Below are positions 86-31,961 of a stretch of 36,508 nucleotides of DNA, piece after piece. The notes beneath the pieces are model-generated. The model was given only the letters and a program-made list of their open reading frames with translations, ran no database searches and was not told the origin of the DNA. A program made the position numbers and the translations under genes. This DNA comes from Archaeoglobales archaeon (GTDB taxonomy: Archaea > Halobacteriota > Archaeoglobi > Archaeoglobales > Archaeoglobaceae), in assembly GCA_003662995.1 (NCBI GenBank), contig QMZC01000014.1, positions 1-36,508 of the forward strand, read 5' to 3'. How positions within the stretch are numbered: position 1 is the first letter of the stretch; the number at the start of each line of letters is the position of its first letter.

Positions 86-805
86 ATGAGATGGCTCAAG
101 CTGGCGGTAATAGTTACATTTCTGTTGCTAATCCCTGCCAACGCTCAACCGGTTAAAGTGGAATCAATATCAAATTATAACATGATAATCGAGGTTAATG
201 GCGATGTTGTACACGTTAAAAACAACATAACGTTGAAAAATTTAATAAACAAGCCGATAGTTCCGGGAATTGGAGAGATAAGGCTACAAAAAGTTTCCCC
301 TCAAAAAATTGGTTTTATTTCAATCCCTTTTACAAAGGAGGTTAAGCCAGTAAAAGTTGAAAATTTGAAGGGTTATAAGAGTGATGGAGATAAGATTGAG
401 GTTAAGGTTGAGGACAAAAAGGATTATACAATCATACACTACGAAATCTGGTATCCAATTGAGCCGGGTAAAGAATTAACCTTTGTCATTGAATACGATT
501 CGTCGGACTTAATTGAGAAGGGTTTGTTGTTTAAAACGCTCAAAGTTCCAGTTGGTGCTGATTTGGATGTTGAAAGGTTAAAGCTGGAAATTAAATCCGA
601 CTGGAAAATAACCTACACAGACCCTGAAATGTCAAGTTACTGGGAAGCAAGTATTCCTGCTGGTAGTATAGCATTCTTTACTGCTGAACTCTCAATCTTG
701 CCATTGCCCAAAACACCATTTAGCAGTTACATTATGTTCTGGACTGCAATAATCGTTTTGGTTGTTTTGCTGGCATTGGTTGTTAGGAAAAGAGGAAAAA
801 CATAG
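86..805 (+). CDS. Small type I membrane surface protein, unknown family
   Basis: 239 residues. A signal peptide (basic start, hydrophobic core, cleavage near Ala-Gln at about residue 20) is followed by a beta-rich extracellular region of about 190 residues. A single membrane segment at about residues 212-232 ends in a basic tail (RKRGK), so the C-terminus should be cytoplasmic. I recognise no named family. The stop TAG is followed immediately by the ATG of the giant surface protein, so the two are almost certainly cotranscribed and translationally coupled. By position it may be a membrane anchor, partner or assembly factor for that secreted protein, which has no membrane anchor of its own; that role is inference. 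The start is supported by the TATA box 25 nt upstream. Confidence 0.85.
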   Translation: MRWLKLAVIVTFLLLIPANAQPVKVESISNYNMIIEVNGDVVHVKNNITLKNLINKPIVPGIGEIRLQKVSPQKIGFISIPFTKEVKPVKVENLKGYKSDGDKIEVKVEDKKDYTIIHYEIWYPIEPGKELTFVIEYDSSDLIEKGLLFKTLKVPVGADLDVERLKLEIKSDWKITYTDPEMSSYWEASIPAGSIAFFTAELSILPLPKTPFSSYIMFWTAIIVLVVLLALVVRKRGKT

Positions 806-8670: not shown

Positions 8671-10182
8671 ATGAGGTTGGTTGTGTTACTCGCTTTACTA
8701 ACTTGTATAACTACAATCTCAAGTGCAGAATGTATTAATGAATATAGATATGCTGTTTTTTATCCCAATGGGACGCAAGTTGTTTTTGAGGACTGGTTTG
8801 CTGGCAATCTAACCAACAATTACCCGCACCAAATTAATAGTATAAACGTTACGTACAGAGACGCAACTGCTTTCATTCCATCCATAAATCCAGGCGAGAG
8901 TAAGGGTTTTAGCAAAACTCTAAAACCTAAGAATTTTAATATAGGTGTTAAAATCTATGCGGAAGGTGACAGAAATGCCTTTTCAATTGTTTATGAGATT
9001 GAAAACTTCTACAACTTTACCGTTTCTATCAACATCTCAATTCCAAAGCCAGATTTTGCAACTTCTTGGGAAAATTGCAGTTTGATTGGAAAAAACTTGG
9101 TTTCAAATTTTTTTCTGCCTCCCAACACCAAATATTTCATCAGAATAAGAGGTTCGGGAAATTATGCAAAGGTTGACGATTCACTAATTGATTTCAGCAT
9201 TCCCTCAAAAGCCAACATAAGTTTTTCAGCTCCGACTGTATTTTCGATCACGAAGGAGTTGGACAATGGAACATGGTATGCAAACTATTCAATAAAAAAC
9301 AAGGCAGAATGTACTTTAAAAATCAACGGAACTACATGGGCTGAGACGGATACTAAGCATAACCTCTTCAATTTTTCCACAATCCTTAATCCAAATGAGA
9401 CGTGGAGTAAAAAAACAAAGTTTGAATCTGAAGTAGTTCCAACTTTCTACATCAAATACGTCGCATTGAATTACACTCAGTGTGATGTTGTTATAAAACC
9501 AGTTTACAAAGTTGGGAATAACTACGTAATTGGTATGGCTAAAGTGTTCGGCACAACATTCAACTTTGGAGCTGTTGCTGGAGGTGTTGGAGGGGTTGGA
9601 CATGGAATACTTGTAACACCCACACCAAAATCAACAAAACCGGCCCAACCGGTTCAACCAACTCAACCAACTCTAACCCCGCCAACCCAGCCAACAAAAC
9701 CAACACCAATACCCACACCACCTATGCCAATTCCAACTCCACCCATAATCATACCAACCAAAATCACCAAAGAGAAGGCAAAAACATACGTTGCATACAC
9801 GTTGCCTGTAGCGTATGCCACAGCAACCTCCCTTATAGTCTCTCCTGTGTTTAGAAGAAGAGGTTTTGTTGTTGACGGTAAATTTTTAGATGCTATTGGA
9901 GACAAAGCAATTCTTTTTAGCAGGTATGCGAGGAGAATGTATACGACATCATCAAATGCCAGACCTTTTGCATATGTTGTTGATTTAAACGTGGAGAGGG
10001 AAATGGTGGAATCCATAGCCATTAGAAACGGGTTGAGTGTTGAAGAAACTGAAAGCATAATCTTGGCTATACAAATGAAAAGACCCTTGTTTATAGCTGA
10101 TGAAAAAGCTGCTGAAGTTGCTAGAAGGTACGGTGTTTTGGCATATACAGTAGAAGATATTATTAAATACTCGTACGTTTAA
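8671..10182 (+). CDS. Surface protein with Pro/Thr linker, one TM segment and cytoplasmic PIN-like domain
   Basis: 503 residues. A signal peptide (about 1-19) is followed by an extracellular beta-rich region with many N-x-S/T sites (about 20-300) and a Gly-rich turn. A Pro/Thr/Gln linker (about 314-362) leads to a membrane segment (about 371-393) ending in FRRRG, which by the positive-inside rule puts the tail in the cytoplasm. The tail (about 398-503) looks like a PIN-type nuclease fold of the DUF3368 kind: an early FVVDGKF strand (Asp402), a GLSVEETES helix (Glu458/459/461), then a LFIADEKAAEVARRYGV-type strand-helix with Asp477. A PIN fold behind a receptor-like ectodomain is unusual. The membrane layout is clear; the PIN assignment is from pattern only and needs a structure-based search. 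Confidence 0.75.
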   Translation: MRLVVLLALLTCITTISSAECINEYRYAVFYPNGTQVVFEDWFAGNLTNNYPHQINSINVTYRDATAFIPSINPGESKGFSKTLKPKNFNIGVKIYAEGDRNAFSIVYEIENFYNFTVSINISIPKPDFATSWENCSLIGKNLVSNFFLPPNTKYFIRIRGSGNYAKVDDSLIDFSIPSKANISFSAPTVFSITKELDNGTWYANYSIKNKAECTLKINGTTWAETDTKHNLFNFSTILNPNETWSKKTKFESEVVPTFYIKYVALNYTQCDVVIKPVYKVGNNYVIGMAKVFGTTFNFGAVAGGVGGVGHGILVTPTPKSTKPAQPVQPTQPTLTPPTQPTKPTPIPTPPMPIPTPPIIIPTKITKEKAKTYVAYTLPVAYATATSLIVSPVFRRRGFVVDGKFLDAIGDKAILFSRYARRMYTTSSNARPFAYVVDLNVEREMVESIAIRNGLSVEETESIILAIQMKRPLFIADEKAAEVARRYGVLAYTVEDIIKYSYV

Positions 10183-10185
10183 CTG

Positions 10186-10740
10186 TTGATAGTGGACGAG
10201 CTGGAAGTTGCTTTGGATAGACTAATAAGAGATGCAAAAAGAAGGGATACCATAGCAGCTGTGTTAATCGCTACATCCTTTTTTATGTTTGGGATTGTGG
10301 CATTACTACTGTTAGACGTAATAGTTGTTCCCGATACGATAAAAGGTAGCTTAATTATGGCTATTTTGCTATTAATTTGGATTTTTATGGCAATTGGCAT
10401 TTACTTTTTAGTATCACAACCTTTACCAAAAACTTTCAGAATAGTGGCAGATTCAAGTGGTGTTGTTGGCGTTATAAACAATCGAAAATTTACAAATGAG
10501 AAAATTTACGTTCCAGAGTCGAGTTTTAGAAACTTACCACCTAACGTTGCAATTAAAGCTAATTTAGAGGTTGTTAGACCTCCCGAAAGTGAGGTTGCCA
10601 GATTCAGGGGAGTAGATAGGGAGCTTGCTGAAGCTTTAGCAGTAGCATCCATTTTGAAAGCAAAATATCTAATCACACAAAAGAAAATTGGTAATAAAGT
10701 TAATGGTGTAAAGATTGTAAATCCAAATAAAATTTTGTAA
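10186..10740 (+). CDS. Two-helix membrane protein with PIN-like cytoplasmic domain
   Basis: 184 residues from a TTG at 10186. A GTG at 10192 is an equally good start, and neither has a clear ribosome binding site. A short charged N-terminus precedes two membrane segments (about 24-45 and 52-75), so both ends should be cytoplasmic. The remaining 100 residues look PIN-like: IVADSSG with Asp89, KIYVPESSF with Glu111, GVDRELAEALAVA with Asp144 and Glu149, then AKYLITQKKI. In canonical PIN nucleases the last motif carries an acidic residue (LITDD); here it is Gln165, so activity may be reduced or lost. It begins 3 nt after the preceding gene, whose tail carries the same type of fold, so the two products probably act together. 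Confidence 0.7.
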   Translation: MIVDELEVALDRLIRDAKRRDTIAAVLIATSFFMFGIVALLLLDVIVVPDTIKGSLIMAILLLIWIFMAIGIYFLVSQPLPKTFRIVADSSGVVGVINNRKFTNEKIYVPESSFRNLPPNVAIKANLEVVRPPESEVARFRGVDRELAEALAVASILKAKYLITQKKIGNKVNGVKIVNPNKIL

Positions 10741-25194: not shown

Positions 25195-25989
25195 ATGTAC
25201 GACTTTGTTAAGAAAATTAAAGAAATCGAAAAGGGGTTGAAGAAGATTCGTCTGTTTGAAATACTGCTATCTACCACCGTGATATTCTTATTCTTCAACC
25301 TATTATTCTTCATCCTTGGTTTGCCAAGACCCTATGCTGTTTTGTTGGCTATCGCCTATCTCATACTGAGATTAATTGTAGATTTTTCTAAGCTGAAATT
25401 TTTCAAAATTGCAGAAAATTATAAATTTAAGGACAAAATTAAAACTGCTTGGGATAACATAAACCTGAAAAACGTTTTGATGGAGTACTTAGCCTTAGAG
25501 GTTTTAGAGGATTTAAGTTACGTTAAACTAAATCCATTTGTGAGAAAAGGTAGGATAGCTTTACTCGTTTTGGGATGCATATTACTCTCATTCTCCACAA
25601 TCTACCTAACTACCAATGATGAATTGATTGAAAAAGGTAGAAACTGGGCTGAAGATTTTAAGAATTTGTTTAAATACGCTCCAATCCAATCAAACAACAC
25701 AGCAAACAACGAAAACACAAATCCGGTTAATTTAAACAGAAAAACTGGTGCTGGTGGAGATATTTATGGGAAACCATCAATCGCATCTCTTGAAAACACA
25801 GCCAACATAAAATTCCAGCTTGGCGGTGTTGAATCTAAGGTGTCAGCTACGTCTGGAGCCTCTTTCAATACAAATCAAAGTGAAGAAGAAATAAATCCTG
25901 TTGTGAGTGAAGCTTATCACGAAAACGTTCCTCAGGCTTATGAGGAGGTTGTTAAGAGGTATTTTGAGAAGTTGAGGGGTGGGACTTAG
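25195..25989 (+). CDS. Three-helix membrane protein of the MoxR cluster
   Basis: 264 residues from the ATG at 25195, chosen because AAAGGTG (25182-25188) lies 6 nt upstream; a GTG at 25186 would overlap that site. Two close membrane segments (about 23-65) and a third (about 118-140) enclose a charged cytoplasmic loop. After the third comes an Asn/Thr-rich, low-complexity segment (SNNTANNENTNPVN) and a C-terminus EAYHENVPQAYEEVVKRYFEKLR. That ending resembles the tail seen on membrane proteins encoded beside MoxR/DUF58 genes (VPxxYxxxVxxYFxxL). No enzymatic motif was seen. It may be the membrane base of the complex. Confidence 0.8.
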   Translation: MYDFVKKIKEIEKGLKKIRLFEILLSTTVIFLFFNLLFFILGLPRPYAVLLAIAYLILRLIVDFSKLKFFKIAENYKFKDKIKTAWDNINLKNVLMEYLALEVLEDLSYVKLNPFVRKGRIALLVLGCILLSFSTIYLTTNDELIEKGRNWAEDFKNLFKYAPIQSNNTANNENTNPVNLNRKTGAGGDIYGKPSIASLENTANIKFQLGGVESKVSATSGASFNTNQSEEEINPVVSEAYHENVPQAYEEVVKRYFEKLRGGT

Positions 25990-25990
25990 A

Positions 25991-27004
25991 ATGAATGATG
26001 AGGAGAGTATAGAAAAATTAGAAATTCGGGTTAAGGGAGCAAAGGAGACGAAAGAATTGGAAGATTTGTATTTAAAAACCGATGAAATCTTCGAAGCCAT
26101 ATTTAACGAAATTGGAAAGGCTATTGTTGGTCAGCGAGACGTTGTTGAGCAAATAGTGATAGCATTGCTATGTGATGGACACGTTCTCGTTGAAGGCTAT
26201 CCGGGATTGGGCAAGACGAAGATGATAAGTGTGTTGTCTAAGGTTATTGATTTGAAGTTTAGTAGAATTCAGTGCACACCCGATTTAATGCCCAGCGATC
26301 TGACGGGGGTTTACATAATTGAGGAGGAGGATGGGAAAAAGGTTTTTAGGTTTAAACCCGGCCCCATTTTTGCAAACATAGTGCTTGTTGATGAGATTAA
26401 CCGTGCAACACCCAAAAGCCAGAGTGCATTACTTGAGGCGATGCAGGAAAGACAGGTTACAGTTGGAGATGAAACACATCCGTTGGATAAACCTTTCTTT
26501 GTCCTAGCCACCCAAAACCCGATTGAAATGGAGGGGACGTACCCATTGCCCGAAGCACAACTCGATAGGTTCCTTTTTAAGATACTCATAGACTACCCAT
26601 CTTTTGAGGAGGAGAGTAAAATTGTCGATTTGTATTCAGTCGACATCTCACCAGACACTGAAATTAGAAAGATTATAACAAAATACGAATTGCTAAAGCT
26701 GCAAAGATTGACAAGGCAGGTGCCAATATCAAAGGATATCAAAGATTATGCGTTGAGAATTGTTACTAAAACAAGAGACATGGAAGACATAGAATATGGA
26801 GCTTCACCAAGAGCCTCAATTGCCTTAGTTCTAGCAGCAAAAGCAAGGGCTTTAATAAAGGGTAGAAATTACGTGAGTAAGGAAGATGTAGAAGTGATGG
26901 CGTATCCCGTGTTAAGGCACAGGATAATCCTAACGTTTGATGCTGAAAGGAGGGGCGTAACCCAAGACGAAGTTGTAAGGCAGATAATCAAAGAAGTGAA
27001 GTAG
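25991..27004 (+). CDS. MoxR-family AAA+ ATPase
   Basis: 337 residues from the ATG at 25991, one base after the previous stop, with GAGGGGTGGG at 25973-25982 as ribosome site. A GTG at 25979 is a weaker start. AAA+ motifs: Walker A GYPGLGKT (residues 69-76), Walker B IVLVDEINRA (about 130-138), sensor 1 in FFVLATQNPIE, the arginine-finger region in LPEAQLDRFLF, and sensor 2 in ASPRASIALVLAAKA. MoxR ATPases act as chaperones that mature or remodel partner proteins, usually with VWA-domain proteins encoded beside them, as here. The client is unknown. Cytoplasmic. Confidence 0.94.
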   Translation: MNDEESIEKLEIRVKGAKETKELEDLYLKTDEIFEAIFNEIGKAIVGQRDVVEQIVIALLCDGHVLVEGYPGLGKTKMISVLSKVIDLKFSRIQCTPDLMPSDLTGVYIIEEEDGKKVFRFKPGPIFANIVLVDEINRATPKSQSALLEAMQERQVTVGDETHPLDKPFFVLATQNPIEMEGTYPLPEAQLDRFLFKILIDYPSFEEESKIVDLYSVDISPDTEIRKIITKYELLKLQRLTRQVPISKDIKDYALRIVTKTRDMEDIEYGASPRASIALVLAAKARALIKGRNYVSKEDVEVMAYPVLRHRIILTFDAERRGVTQDEVVRQIIKEVK

Positions 27005-27008
27005 CTAT

Positions 27009-27884
27009 ATGAAGGATACAATTGACATCGATTTTCTCAAAGAGCTGGATAGATTCAGTTTTATGATAAAAAAAAGAGTTAGCAGTGTTTATGCTGGGGA
27101 AAGGAGGTCAATAAAGCTCGGCAAAGGAATAGATATAGTTGATTTAAGAGAGTACTATCCGGGAGATGACATAAAGCTAATAGATTGGAACGCTTATGCT
27201 AGGACCGAGAGGTTGTACGTAAAGAGATACGAAGAGGAAAGAAACTTAACGACACACATTCTTTTAGATTCAAGCAATTCAATGAATTTTGGCTTTGACA
27301 TCACAAAGTTTGAGTATGCAAAGAAGCTTGCGATTGGATTTGCGTATCTTGTTACAAAAGAGAACGAAAAATTTGCTTTATCAACGTATTCTGATAAAAT
27401 AAACGAGATTATCCAGCCAATGAGGGGCAAAAAGCACTTTTTAAAGACTGTCGAGTTCCTTACATACAAGAAGTGTGAAGGAAAAACGAATATTGAAGCT
27501 TCAATGGGTGAATACGTTAAATATATAAGGTCTAAATCCCTGATAATTTTGATTTCCGATTTTGTAGAGCCTATTGAGGAAATAGAAAGGGGTTTGTATA
27601 AAATCTCACGATTTGCCTACGATTTCATAGTCATCCACTTGTTGGACCCTATTGAGAGATATTTGGAGCTGAAGGGCGATTACAAGTTGTACGACATGGA
27701 GACGGAAGTCATGCTAAAGAGTTACATTAGTGAGAGGTTCAGAAAGGAGTACATGAAAAGGATTAACAACCACATTCAGAGCATAAACAGAATCTGTAAT
27801 GAGCTCAATACGGATTTTTACAGTTATACTACAAACACACCGATTTTTAATGTGTTCTTGGAGGTTTTATCGCATGCCGTTTGA
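27009..27884 (+). CDS. DUF58 domain protein
   Basis: 291 residues, the expected length for the DUF58 family that accompanies MoxR. Diagnostic stretch: VDLREYYPGDDIKLIDWNAYART (residues about 40-62), then RLYVKRYEEERNLTTHILLDSSNSMNFG, where DSSNS is a VWA-like metal-site motif (DxSxS). The C-terminal half follows the VWA-like fold (FALSTYSD; LIILISDFVEP). It is soluble and probably a MoxR partner or adaptor to the membrane VWA proteins. It starts 4 nt after moxR and overlaps the next gene by 11 nt. Confidence 0.92.
   Translation: MKDTIDIDFLKELDRFSFMIKKRVSSVYAGERRSIKLGKGIDIVDLREYYPGDDIKLIDWNAYARTERLYVKRYEEERNLTTHILLDSSNSMNFGFDITKFEYAKKLAIGFAYLVTKENEKFALSTYSDKINEIIQPMRGKKHFLKTVEFLTYKKCEGKTNIEASMGEYVKYIRSKSLIILISDFVEPIEEIERGLYKISRFAYDFIVIHLLDPIERYLELKGDYKLYDMETEVMLKSYISERFRKEYMKRINNHIQSINRICNELNTDFYSYTTNTPIFNVFLEVLSHAV
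27860..27865 (+). promoter_or_regulatory. Ribosome binding site that fixes the BatA-like start
   Basis: GGAGGT inside the end of the DUF58 gene lies 8 nt before the ATG at 27874. It supports that ATG over the longer open frame beginning at 27799, whose extra 25 residues are simply DUF58 codons read out of frame. Confidence 0.7.
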
Positions 27885-29661
27885 TAATGTTCTGGGTTTT
27901 CTGGGTTTGTTAGGCTTAATACCTCTGATTATTCTGTATCTCATCAAACCCAAGCCAAAGGAGATCAAAATTCCCACTTTGATGTTTATGGTAAGAGAGA
28001 AGGAAAGTAAGCTAAAATCTTTGATTAAAAAGATGCTATTTGACCCCCTTTTTTTGCTGCAAGTCTTGATCATAATTTTAATCTCAGCCTCAATGGCAAA
28101 GCCATACTGTATAGCTGAAAAGATTGCAGGAAGCGAAAACGTAGCAATCGTTTTGGATGTGTCGGCTTCGATGCAAGCTAAGGACGTGTTGCCAAGCAGA
28201 TTTGATAAGGCGATTGAAATAGCTAAGAATGTGGTATCAAAATCCGGAAAGGTTAGCATAATCTTGGCAGCCAAGCATCCTGCTGTGCTGGTTGAGAAAG
28301 GAGATCCAAAGGCAGCATTAGCACTCCTCGATTCTGTAGGACCTTTAGACACTCCAACAAACCTTGTTGACGCAATGGAGTTGGCGAGGAGCATTGTTGA
28401 AAAAGATGGGAGGATAGTGGTTGTTTCAGACTTTGTTGCTAAAGGAGATATTCTCTTAGAAAAAAAGCTTGTAAATGCGAACAACATAATGGTTGATTTT
28501 GCAAAAGTTGGTAATAACGGAAAAAACGTTGGAATCGTTGATTTGAAGAGGATCGGAAGTACCGTATATGTGACACTTAGGAACTACGATGAGGATAACA
28601 GAAACGTTGTTCTAAAAGTTTTGAACAACAATGCAGAAGTTTTAAAGGTGGACGAATCAGTACAACCAAAATCCAGTTATGTTTTTATTTTGGAAAACTT
28701 GCCTCTCGGTAGAAACGTTATAGAGATTGAGAGCAATCTTAGAGATGATTTTCCAACAGACAATCAAGCGTATATATACATAAAAAAGAGTAAATACAAA
28801 GTTTTGGTGTTGTGCGAGAAAAAAGACTCGCACATCAGAAAAGCTTTGTTGGCAACCAATTTAGTAACAATTGAAGAGTCTTACTTACCTATAATTCCAA
28901 ATCTAAACGATTATGATATCGTTTTAGTTGAGAATGTGAGCATAGACTTATTTCCACCGGGTTCTTTTGATGACATAGCGAAATTTGTTAAAAATGGTGG
29001 AAACTTGATTGTTGCCAGTAATAACTTTGAATTGTTGAAAAATTTGGAAAGTATTTTGCCTGTAACTGTTAACAATAAAGTTGAAGAAGGGGTTGTAACC
29101 AGAGCAATCGTGAATGAGATAACGAAGGATGTTGAATTTAATTTTAAAACGACCTATTTAACAGCAACACCAAAAAACGGTTCAATAACTATTGCAAAGG
29201 CTGAAAGTCCCGTCATTTCAATTTGGACAATCGGAAAAGGAAAGGCAATTTACTATGGAATCTCTGAAAACAGCAGTTTTTATCAGAAAACATCCTATCC
29301 AATTTTCTGGCTTAAGATTGTTGAATGGCTGGAAAGTAGTAAGATTGGAGATAGCTACAAGACAGGCGAGGTTATTAAGCTTGGTGGTGTTAATGTTGAG
29401 TATGATTCAAAGAAGTTCAATACCGACACATTGCTGTTTGAAAAAACTGGGTTTTACAAGATAGGTGGAGAAATCGTTAGTGTCAATTTACTTGATCCCC
29501 TTGAGTCTGATATTTCAAATTCCGTTATCGCGAAAACACAATTCAGCTTTGAAGAGAAAAAGAAGGAAGTTAAGGAGGATTTGACTGATTTGCTAATAGT
29601 TTCGGTAATTCTGCTGGTGATTGGTGAGATAGCCTATCTCAAGTGGAGGGGAGATATTTGA
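27874..29661 (+). CDS. BatA-like membrane protein with VWA domain
   Basis: 595 residues. The N-terminus has the Bat-family arrangement: a membrane segment (GFLGLLGLIPLIILYLI), a short cytoplasmic stretch (PKEIKIPTLMFM), a second membrane segment (about residues 58-78), then a VWA domain with MIDAS motif DVSAS at Asp95 and later VVVSDFV. After that come a beta-sandwich region (about 215-300) and an alpha/beta region starting KVLVLCEKKD (about 307-490) that resembles a class I glutamine amidotransferase-like fold. A last membrane segment lies close to the C-terminus (about 570-588). It should be a membrane partner of the MoxR ATPase. Confidence 0.88.
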   Translation: MPFDNVLGFLGLLGLIPLIILYLIKPKPKEIKIPTLMFMVREKESKLKSLIKKMLFDPLFLLQVLIIILISASMAKPYCIAEKIAGSENVAIVLDVSASMQAKDVLPSRFDKAIEIAKNVVSKSGKVSIILAAKHPAVLVEKGDPKAALALLDSVGPLDTPTNLVDAMELARSIVEKDGRIVVVSDFVAKGDILLEKKLVNANNIMVDFAKVGNNGKNVGIVDLKRIGSTVYVTLRNYDEDNRNVVLKVLNNNAEVLKVDESVQPKSSYVFILENLPLGRNVIEIESNLRDDFPTDNQAYIYIKKSKYKVLVLCEKKDSHIRKALLATNLVTIEESYLPIIPNLNDYDIVLVENVSIDLFPPGSFDDIAKFVKNGGNLIVASNNFELLKNLESILPVTVNNKVEEGVVTRAIVNEITKDVEFNFKTTYLTATPKNGSITIAKAESPVISIWTIGKGKAIYYGISENSSFYQKTSYPIFWLKIVEWLESSKIGDSYKTGEVIKLGGVNVEYDSKKFNTDTLLFEKTGFYKIGGEIVSVNLLDPLESDISNSVIAKTQFSFEEKKKEVKEDLTDLLIVSVILLVIGEIAYLKWRGDI

Positions 29662-31961
29662 ATGTGGAAAATCTATACATTGTGTTGCTAATAATTCCAA
29701 TAGCTATAGCCCTTTTCAAGTTAGGGAAAGGAGTGTTAACCTTAAACAGGATTTTGATATGCCTTTTACTGTTGGTAGCAATCTCCTCACCTTACTACTT
29801 GGTGGAGAAATGGGTTGAGGGGGAAGCTAAAGCCACAATTCTTGTTGACAATTCCACAAGCATGGAAATTTACGATTTGGGTTTTTTGAGCGAGATGCCA
29901 AAGGACATGATCGATTATTTTGGCTATGAAAACAAGTCAGATATTGGAGATGCCCTCTTCAATCACATAGAGCATAACAGCAACGTGCTGTTGATTACAG
30001 ATGGTAGAAACAACTACGGAAGGGATTTAATCGGTGTTGCATCGTTGGCTGCATCGATGAATGTAAGTGTTAGTACTGTAAAGCTTGATGTGGTTAAAGA
30101 TGATGTTAGCGTGAGTATTAAAGGTAATAGAAGGGTTTTTCTAAATTCAAACGAGACCTACGATGTTGTTGTGAGAAAGGTTGGTAAGGATATTTCGTAC
30201 AAACTGACAGTTTTTATAGACGATACTGAAGTGTTAAATCAAAAGATTACGCAGAAGGAAGATGTTAAAGTGTTTAAAATAAATCACAAGTTCAAATCGA
30301 TGGGCAATCACAAGATTATAGCAAGGGTTGATACTGATGATTTTTTCAAATTAAACAACGTGTTTTACAAATCTGTTTACGTGTTAGATAAACCAAAAAT
30401 ACTGTTTGTCGGTAGAAATTCTCCACTAACAAGATTTTTATCGAGTTTGTACGATGTTGATGTGGTAAGCAGTTTACCAAACAGACTGGATGAATACAAT
30501 GCAGTAATATTGGATGACTTGCCAATCAACAAGCTTAGTGGTAGGGTTGGACTGCTGGAAAGTTATCTAGAAGAGGGAAACGGATTGGTCGTTGTTGGTG
30601 GGAGAAACTCCTTTGACAATGATTACTACAAAGATACCCTATTTGAAACTTTACTGCCAGTAAAGGTAGTTGAGAGGGGTTTCAAAAAATCTATCTCACT
30701 CTTGATAATCATAGACATCTCAGGAAGTACGGGAGAAGAATTTGGGAACTACACGAAGGCTGATGTAGAGAAGGCGATTGCCTTAAGCTTGGTTGAAAAC
30801 GTTAGCAAGAAGTATCCTGTTGGGATAATTGCCTTTAATTACGAAGCGTATCTTGTTGCTCCATTGTCGATATACGAAAACAAAGAAGTTTTGAAGGGCA
30901 AAATCGCATCTCTAAAATTTGGTGGAGCAACGATTATGTACTATTCACAAGTGATGGCTGAATCTATTTTGGACAACGTCACTGGAAGTAAGGCAGTAAT
31001 AATAATATCCGATGGAATTACTCAATTAAAGGAAGAATCTATAAAGAAAGCTAGAGAGATGGCTGAGAAGGGAATAAGGACGTATACTGTTGGTGTTGGA
31101 TACGACACAGATAGGGAATTTTTGTACAAGCTCGCCAAAGCTGGAAATGGTATATTTTTCCCTGTCGAGGAAAACCAAAAGTTGAGGGCGTTGTTTGGAG
31201 AAGAGGAGAAGGAAAAAGAACACAAACTCATTGCGGTTGATACGAACCATTTCATAACCAGAGATTTGAAGCTAAATGCCACAATATTTGGGTACAACAA
31301 AGTTGTAGAGAAGGATGGAGCTGAGTTACTCATCACAACATCCTCAGGCTCGCCTATTGTTACTACGTGGCGTTTTGGACTTGGAAGGGTTGTTGCATTT
31401 ACAACCGATGATGGACGTGATTGGGCTGGGCAGGTTTATTCAAGAAACGGGATTTTGATCTCAAGAATGGTGAACTGGGCTATTGGTGACCCTGAAAGGA
31501 ATAAAGACATGAGAATTTACGCTTCAGATGTATATGGGGGTGAAAGTGTTAAGGTAAAGGTTGTGTCAAAGAAACAACCTAACATCAAAATCGATGGTGT
31601 TGAGGCAAGTTTTTATCTGACAAGTCCAAATGAGTATGCCGTTTCATTCAATGTACGAAATTTAGGGTTTCACACAGTAGAGGTTGATGGAGTTAAGGAA
31701 ATCTTTGCGGTAAACTATCCAAGGGAGTTGGAAAAATTAGGGATCTATGAAACACTTTACAAGGTTGTTGGAATTACAGGTGGTAAAATTTACGATAAAA
31801 ATTCTGATTTTATCAATGACGTGTTAAAAGAAGCAAAGCGCAAGTCTATCCACACCACTCTGGAAAAACGAGATCTGAAGCTACCCCTGCTAGCTATGGC
31901 GTTATTTCTGTTTTTACTGGAAGTTACCATAAGGAGATTAAGAGAGGTGAGGGGAAGATAG
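29658..31961 (+). CDS. Large membrane protein with two VWA-type metal sites and a GATase-like domain
   Basis: 767 residues from the TTG at 29658, whose TTGA overlaps the upstream stop and lies 8 nt after GGAGG (29645-29649). A GTG at 29643 or 29664 is possible. Order: two N-terminal membrane segments; a first VWA-like domain with MIDAS-like DNSTS (near residue 60) and LLITDGRNN; a beta-sandwich; a GATase/ThuA-like alpha/beta part (KILFVGRNSPLT, then GLVVVGGRNSF); a second, canonical VWA domain with DISGS at about Asp353, GGATIMYY and IIISDGITQ; a C-terminal beta domain; and a final membrane segment with a basic tail. Having two MIDAS-type sites in one chain is notable. It is last in the six-gene cluster. 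Confidence 0.88.
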   Translation: MNVENLYIVLLIIPIAIALFKLGKGVLTLNRILICLLLLVAISSPYYLVEKWVEGEAKATILVDNSTSMEIYDLGFLSEMPKDMIDYFGYENKSDIGDALFNHIEHNSNVLLITDGRNNYGRDLIGVASLAASMNVSVSTVKLDVVKDDVSVSIKGNRRVFLNSNETYDVVVRKVGKDISYKLTVFIDDTEVLNQKITQKEDVKVFKINHKFKSMGNHKIIARVDTDDFFKLNNVFYKSVYVLDKPKILFVGRNSPLTRFLSSLYDVDVVSSLPNRLDEYNAVILDDLPINKLSGRVGLLESYLEEGNGLVVVGGRNSFDNDYYKDTLFETLLPVKVVERGFKKSISLLIIIDISGSTGEEFGNYTKADVEKAIALSLVENVSKKYPVGIIAFNYEAYLVAPLSIYENKEVLKGKIASLKFGGATIMYYSQVMAESILDNVTGSKAVIIISDGITQLKEESIKKAREMAEKGIRTYTVGVGYDTDREFLYKLAKAGNGIFFPVEENQKLRALFGEEEKEKEHKLIAVDTNHFITRDLKLNATIFGYNKVVEKDGAELLITTSSGSPIVTTWRFGLGRVVAFTTDDGRDWAGQVYSRNGILISRMVNWAIGDPERNKDMRIYASDVYGGESVKVKVVSKKQPNIKIDGVEASFYLTSPNEYAVSFNVRNLGFHTVEVDGVKEIFAVNYPRELEKLGIYETLYKVVGITGGKIYDKNSDFINDVLKEAKRKSIHTTLEKRDLKLPLLAMALFLFLLEVTIRRLREVRGR

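Follow-up and report, generated by a model that had tools for sequence, protein, structure and literature searches.

Gene C, an open reading frame at 8671-10182 on the forward strand that starts with ATG and encodes 503 aa, is probably the membrane subunit of an archaeal surface complex, with a degenerate PIN domain that would act as a dock and probably pair with the product of the adjacent gene D; the pairing, the docking and the function are what we infer, and taken as a whole the reading seems to us a reasonably good bet. Toxin–antitoxin and RNA-processing systems are where PIN domains are chiefly known, as soluble RNases. The PIN fold and its attachment to membranes are on record; what appears to be new is its joining, as a PIN-like tail, to a surface protein that crosses the membrane once and that has a membrane partner with a probable PIN-like domain. 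Such a conserved archaeal surface cassette, its last genes bearing one cytoplasmic degenerate PIN-like domain or, in Archaeoglobaceae, probably two, would mean that the PIN fold has been recruited as a docking or sensing module of the envelope.

The cassette and the anatomy of gene C

Gene C belongs to a surface-protein cassette, A-B-[E]-C-D, whose order is A-B-C-D in most Archaeoglobaceae, E being missing from most cassettes of that family; E stands between B and C in the window (the whole stretch of 36,508 nucleotides that was analyzed) and also in deep relatives, Hydrothermarchaeota among them. Gene A is unseen in the window because the contig begins just before B, and D starts 3 bases downstream of the stop of C. 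The features are as follows.

86..805, forward strand: gene B, a cassette member encoding a 239-aa exported protein with a signal peptide and a C-terminal membrane helix
806..8560, forward strand: gene E, a giant exported protein of 2584 aa with a beta-helix region, ending in GVDPN and without a C-terminal membrane helix
8671..10182, forward strand: gene C, a surface protein that crosses the membrane once and ends in a PIN-like tail (open reading frame and orthologue alignment)
8671..8730, forward strand: C signal peptide, residues ~1-20 (hydrophobic N-terminus in all orthologues)
8731..9570, forward strand: C ectodomain, residues ~21-300, with 13 sequons (sequon analysis)
9607..9759, forward strand: C Pro/Thr-rich stalk, residues ~313-363 (sequence; stalk length varies among orthologues)
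9784..9852, forward strand: C membrane helix, residues ~372-394, followed by RRRG (hydropathy and orthologue alignment)
9853..10179, forward strand: cytoplasmic tail of C, a degenerate PIN-like domain at residues 395-503 (AlphaFold2, Foldseek and hhalign)
10186..10740, forward strand: gene D, a 184-aa membrane protein with an N-terminal helix, two membrane helices and a cytoplasmic tail
10435..10737, forward strand: probable PIN-like tail of D, residues ~84-184; the Asp of its V[AV]D motif is invariant (hhalign)

Twelve orthologues of C align over its full length and, with the window copy, make a set of 13 proteins. The initial annotation, made from the window alone, had read a receptor-like order of signal peptide, glycosylated-looking ectodomain, stalk and one membrane helix with a basic follow-up, and this anatomy is borne out by the 13 proteins, their sequons and their hydropathy. 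The ectodomains of the set hold 109 N-x-S/T sequons against 32 ± 5 expected, a count reached in none of 500 shuffles, and the tails are nearly free of them (none in the window copy; 2 across the 13 tails against 4.4 expected); enrichment on one side of the membrane helix and near absence on the other speaks for export of the ectodomain and for a tail that stays in the cytoplasm. The helix itself is weakly hydrophobic in the window copy, with a best Kyte–Doolittle value of 1.23 against the usual threshold of 1.6, yet all 12 orthologues reach 1.8-2.2 at a position near that of the window helix, and the membrane helix proposed earlier stands. It is followed by an invariant R-G, extended to R-R-G in most orthologues, and a KKP stretch is conserved in the orthologues as well.

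Gene B (86-805) gives a weak, sub-threshold Pfam match (E 0.008) to Ribophorin I, a subunit of the eukaryotic oligosaccharyltransferase. In one relative (L130, 3022-8605; G218), the E slot after B is occupied by open reading frames with 2 and 11 CxxCH heme motifs, the product being likely a multiheme cytochrome to judge by these motifs, and the cassette thus seems to display different large exported proteins.

The PIN-like fold of the tail and its lost acids

A PIN-type cytoplasmic tail at residues 395-503 had also been proposed, and here a structure model with its fold search and sequence profiles agree independently. Modeled by AlphaFold2 from 12 aligned tails with good confidence (pLDDT 88.4, pTM 0.82), the domain is predicted to have the alpha/beta topology of the PIN-like fold superfamily. 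In a Foldseek search of this model against the PDB, ranks 1-19 (probability 0.93-1.00, TM ~0.54-0.70, E 2e-3 to 7e-2) are all PIN or VapC-type as far as identifiable, although some of the entry titles do not name PIN; the matches include PAE2754, P. horikoshii VapC4, SSO1118 and the Thermus domain 3ix7, which we take to be a YacL-type domain. On the sequence side, hhalign aligned the tail to DUF3368-type PINs at 94.7% (E 6e-8), control comparisons giving 0.1-1.6%, and a C-tail profile run over 55 Archaeoglobaceae genomes recovered 16 true C tails and, as the next best match, a DUF3368 PIN at E 1.8e-5; several weaker matches also fall in DUF3368 proteins. A single-sequence PDB search with the tail gave chance-level matches only, and a nine-sequence profile placed SSO1118 (2mdt) first at E 0.13; a match to the same protein at E 8e-6 was not counted as independent, its alignment having already included true PINs.

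Pfam does not call the C tail PIN, and PF11848 has no match above its cut-off for the tail of either C or D. More broadly, the Pfam, NCBIfam and PADLOC scans gave no convincing match for C or D (the best for C, from PADLOC, at E 0.013), and none of their curated families covers C, D or the C tail. That the tail could be another small alpha/beta fold resembling PIN is nevertheless scarcely to be expected: the missing Pfam call, the lack of a significant hhalign match to VapC-type PINs and Foldseek E-values of 2e-3 at best would be in keeping with it, but model and profile evidence converge independently on PIN, and the tails of C-type proteins from a second archaeal family match DUF3368 PINs at 85% over 121 columns, first strand included. 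The window's own genome has 33 PF01850 PIN matches, 29 of them above the cut-off, and PIN genes in such number could form a pool from which tails like that of C are recruited.

The tail of D aligns by hhalign at 94.5% to DUF3368 PINs and at 93.7% to the C tail, and is probably PIN-like as well; the structure model of D is of moderate confidence (overall pLDDT 77), and the structures that Foldseek returns for it are mixed and do not single out PIN.

The acidic residues that the initial annotation had picked out, Asp402, Glu458-461 and Asp477, are indeed present in the window tail (D402, E458/E459/E461, D477), but their columns vary among the orthologues, with the exception of E461. Asp is found in 3 of 13 proteins in the D402 column and likewise in 3 of 13 in the D477 column, and the E459 column has Glu or Asp in 7 of 13 and otherwise Tyr, Gln or Phe; E461 is invariant (13/13), alone among the catalytic columns examined. 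The second PIN acid, the Glu after the second strand in PIN nucleases, has no counterpart, its segment being missing from the shortened C tails. An active PIN nuclease has a conserved acidic active site, typically of four Asp/Glu residues, and the aligned C tails do not conserve one. With most catalytic columns varying and the second acid gone, the data do not support the earlier idea of a working RNase, nor the envelope-to-RNA signaling that was built on it. The window tail is the least degenerate of the 13 and, because it keeps acids at three PIN positions, may have residual nuclease activity.

Selection on the tail is strong and purifying. Four close pairs give tail dN/dS values of 0.08-0.17, at almost saturated synonymous divergence, and out of 78 pairs 63 show a tail less diverged than the ectodomain. 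A spurious open reading frame was considered and ruled out by the 12 orthologues and the low dN/dS. As most catalytic acids are lost and the tail is yet strongly constrained, it is most likely a maintained pseudonuclease and not a decaying domain.

Distribution, exchangeable tails and known systems

Relatives were found in genome contigs with an alignment of B, C alone as query having found none; no relative of C is encoded in phage records. B, tailed C and D occur in an identical set of 16 of the 55 Archaeoglobaceae genomes, the co-occurrence of C and D being partly explained by their linkage in one operon, and a search of 393 genomes of the phylum turned up no D elsewhere. In one further Archaeoglobaceae genome, without a C tail, a D fragment with an internal stop is present (G077:C1:30062-30277; L107), and this genome has apparently lost the cassette. 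In the second archaeal family mentioned above, of the same phylum, a PIN-like tail is present in at least five C-type proteins and matches the Archaeoglobaceae C tails at 87.5%; the D gene is absent at the C loci inspected there; D is therefore not always needed. In C proteins of Methanomicrobia-like genomes, a PKD domain follows the membrane helix in place of the PIN-like tail, and in those of Hydrothermarchaeal genomes a short helix replaces it, so that the tail slot is exchangeable by lineage between a PIN-like tail, a PKD domain and a short helix, which fits an interaction module. Placed after a single helix, the PKD domain would lie on the cytoplasmic side, an unusual location for PKD; homologues bearing it are encoded at L028 10700-12202 and at L129 4509-6008 (reverse strand). 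The cassette, the neighbor D with its probable PIN-like tail and the joining of the same ectodomain to other tails all go beyond what the initial annotation described.

Comparison with known systems places C near several of them and within none. The profile match to DUF3368-type PINs (PF11848; VapC-like) takes in the tail of C over its C-terminal half and that of D over most of its length. DUF3368 proteins are, however, short soluble proteins in which the acidic GE and DD motifs are preserved; C and D sit in the membrane, and in their shortened tails the majority of these acids are missing. The VapC toxins encoded by vapBC systems share the PIN fold with the C tail, whose nearest solved structures are archaeal VapC-type proteins, but C is membrane anchored, its catalytic acids are not conserved, and the VapC-type PINs of its own genome are not significant by hhalign. 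We rejected C as a VapBC toxin, as it is a 503-aa membrane protein whose neighbors are exported or membrane proteins, with no adjacent antitoxin gene. YacL-type PIN-TRAM proteins, which are known membrane-attached PINs, begin with several membrane helices and have a TRAM domain but are without an exported ectodomain. They resemble C in carrying the PIN domain of a membrane protein on the cytoplasmic side; C, however, has one membrane helix after an exported ectodomain and is without a Pfam domain, and we set aside a YacL assignment for lack of the multi-pass N-terminus and of any TRAM match in Pfam. A search of the literature found no archaeal or membrane-anchored PIN of the C design, which does not prove its absence from the literature.

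Possible roles of the degenerate domains

In the reading that we favor, the A-B-(E)-C-D cassette would encode an archaeal surface complex, with C as the subunit that spans the membrane. The ectodomain of C, which looks glycosylated and is raised on the Pro-rich stalk, would touch exported partners, the single helix would span the membrane, and the tail would be a pseudonuclease acting as a docking module. PIN domains commonly dimerise, and from this we infer that the likeliest partner of the C tail in Archaeoglobaceae is the neighboring membrane protein D, through its PIN-like tail. The surface complex would then be anchored, or sensed, from inside through inactive domains and not by RNA cutting.

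The tail might instead bind RNA without cutting it and tether a transcript or ribosomes near the surface complex. The PIN fold is an RNA-binding fold, basic residues outnumber acidic ones in all 13 C tails, and the RG beside the membrane is invariant, a KKP stretch being conserved too; a basic excess near the membrane is, however, also predicted by the positive-inside rule, and we consider such a tether unlikely. Somewhat further from expectation is a composite nuclease, in which the tails of C and D, each an incomplete PIN-like domain, would jointly form one active site under the membrane. The two domains are adjacent, co-occur and have different invariant acids, E461 in C and the Asp of V[AV]D in D, and there is a precedent in human SMG5-SMG6, a composite PIN for which one joint active site has been reported (PMC12923823). 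As is probably the case with C and D, paralogous PIN domains reside there in partner proteins and one of them is degenerate, but the human pair is eukaryotic and soluble, and the C-D pairing is a proposed one; moreover, the SMG6 PIN has the full acid set, to which its partner adds one residue (PMC12923823), whereas neither C nor D conserves such a set, and in the second archaeal family the PIN-like C tail exists without D. Least probable of these roles, and very much so, is that C alone is a receptor with an active PIN RNase tail switched by an outside signal. In its favor, D402, E459/E461 and D477 of the window copy fall where PIN acids could plausibly lie; against it, the acidic columns are not conserved across the 12 orthologues, the second PIN acid is missing from the shortened tails, and no ligand or switch is known.

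The C-D pair offers a precise test case of whether paired incomplete PIN domains cooperate outside eukaryotes. It would be a long shot for the incomplete pair to form a regulated RNA-cutting or RNA-binding center under the control of the surface complex; a composite PIN of C and D would, if true, amount to transmembrane signaling to RNA.

Farther along the window, the stretch 25979-31961 encodes, one after another, a MoxR-type ATPase, a DUF58 protein and two further membrane proteins, at least one with a VWA domain, and forms a BatA-like cluster. The open reading frame at the contig end (35557-36441, reverse strand) reads, by eye, like a Csm3/Cmr-type RAMP protein of type III CRISPR.
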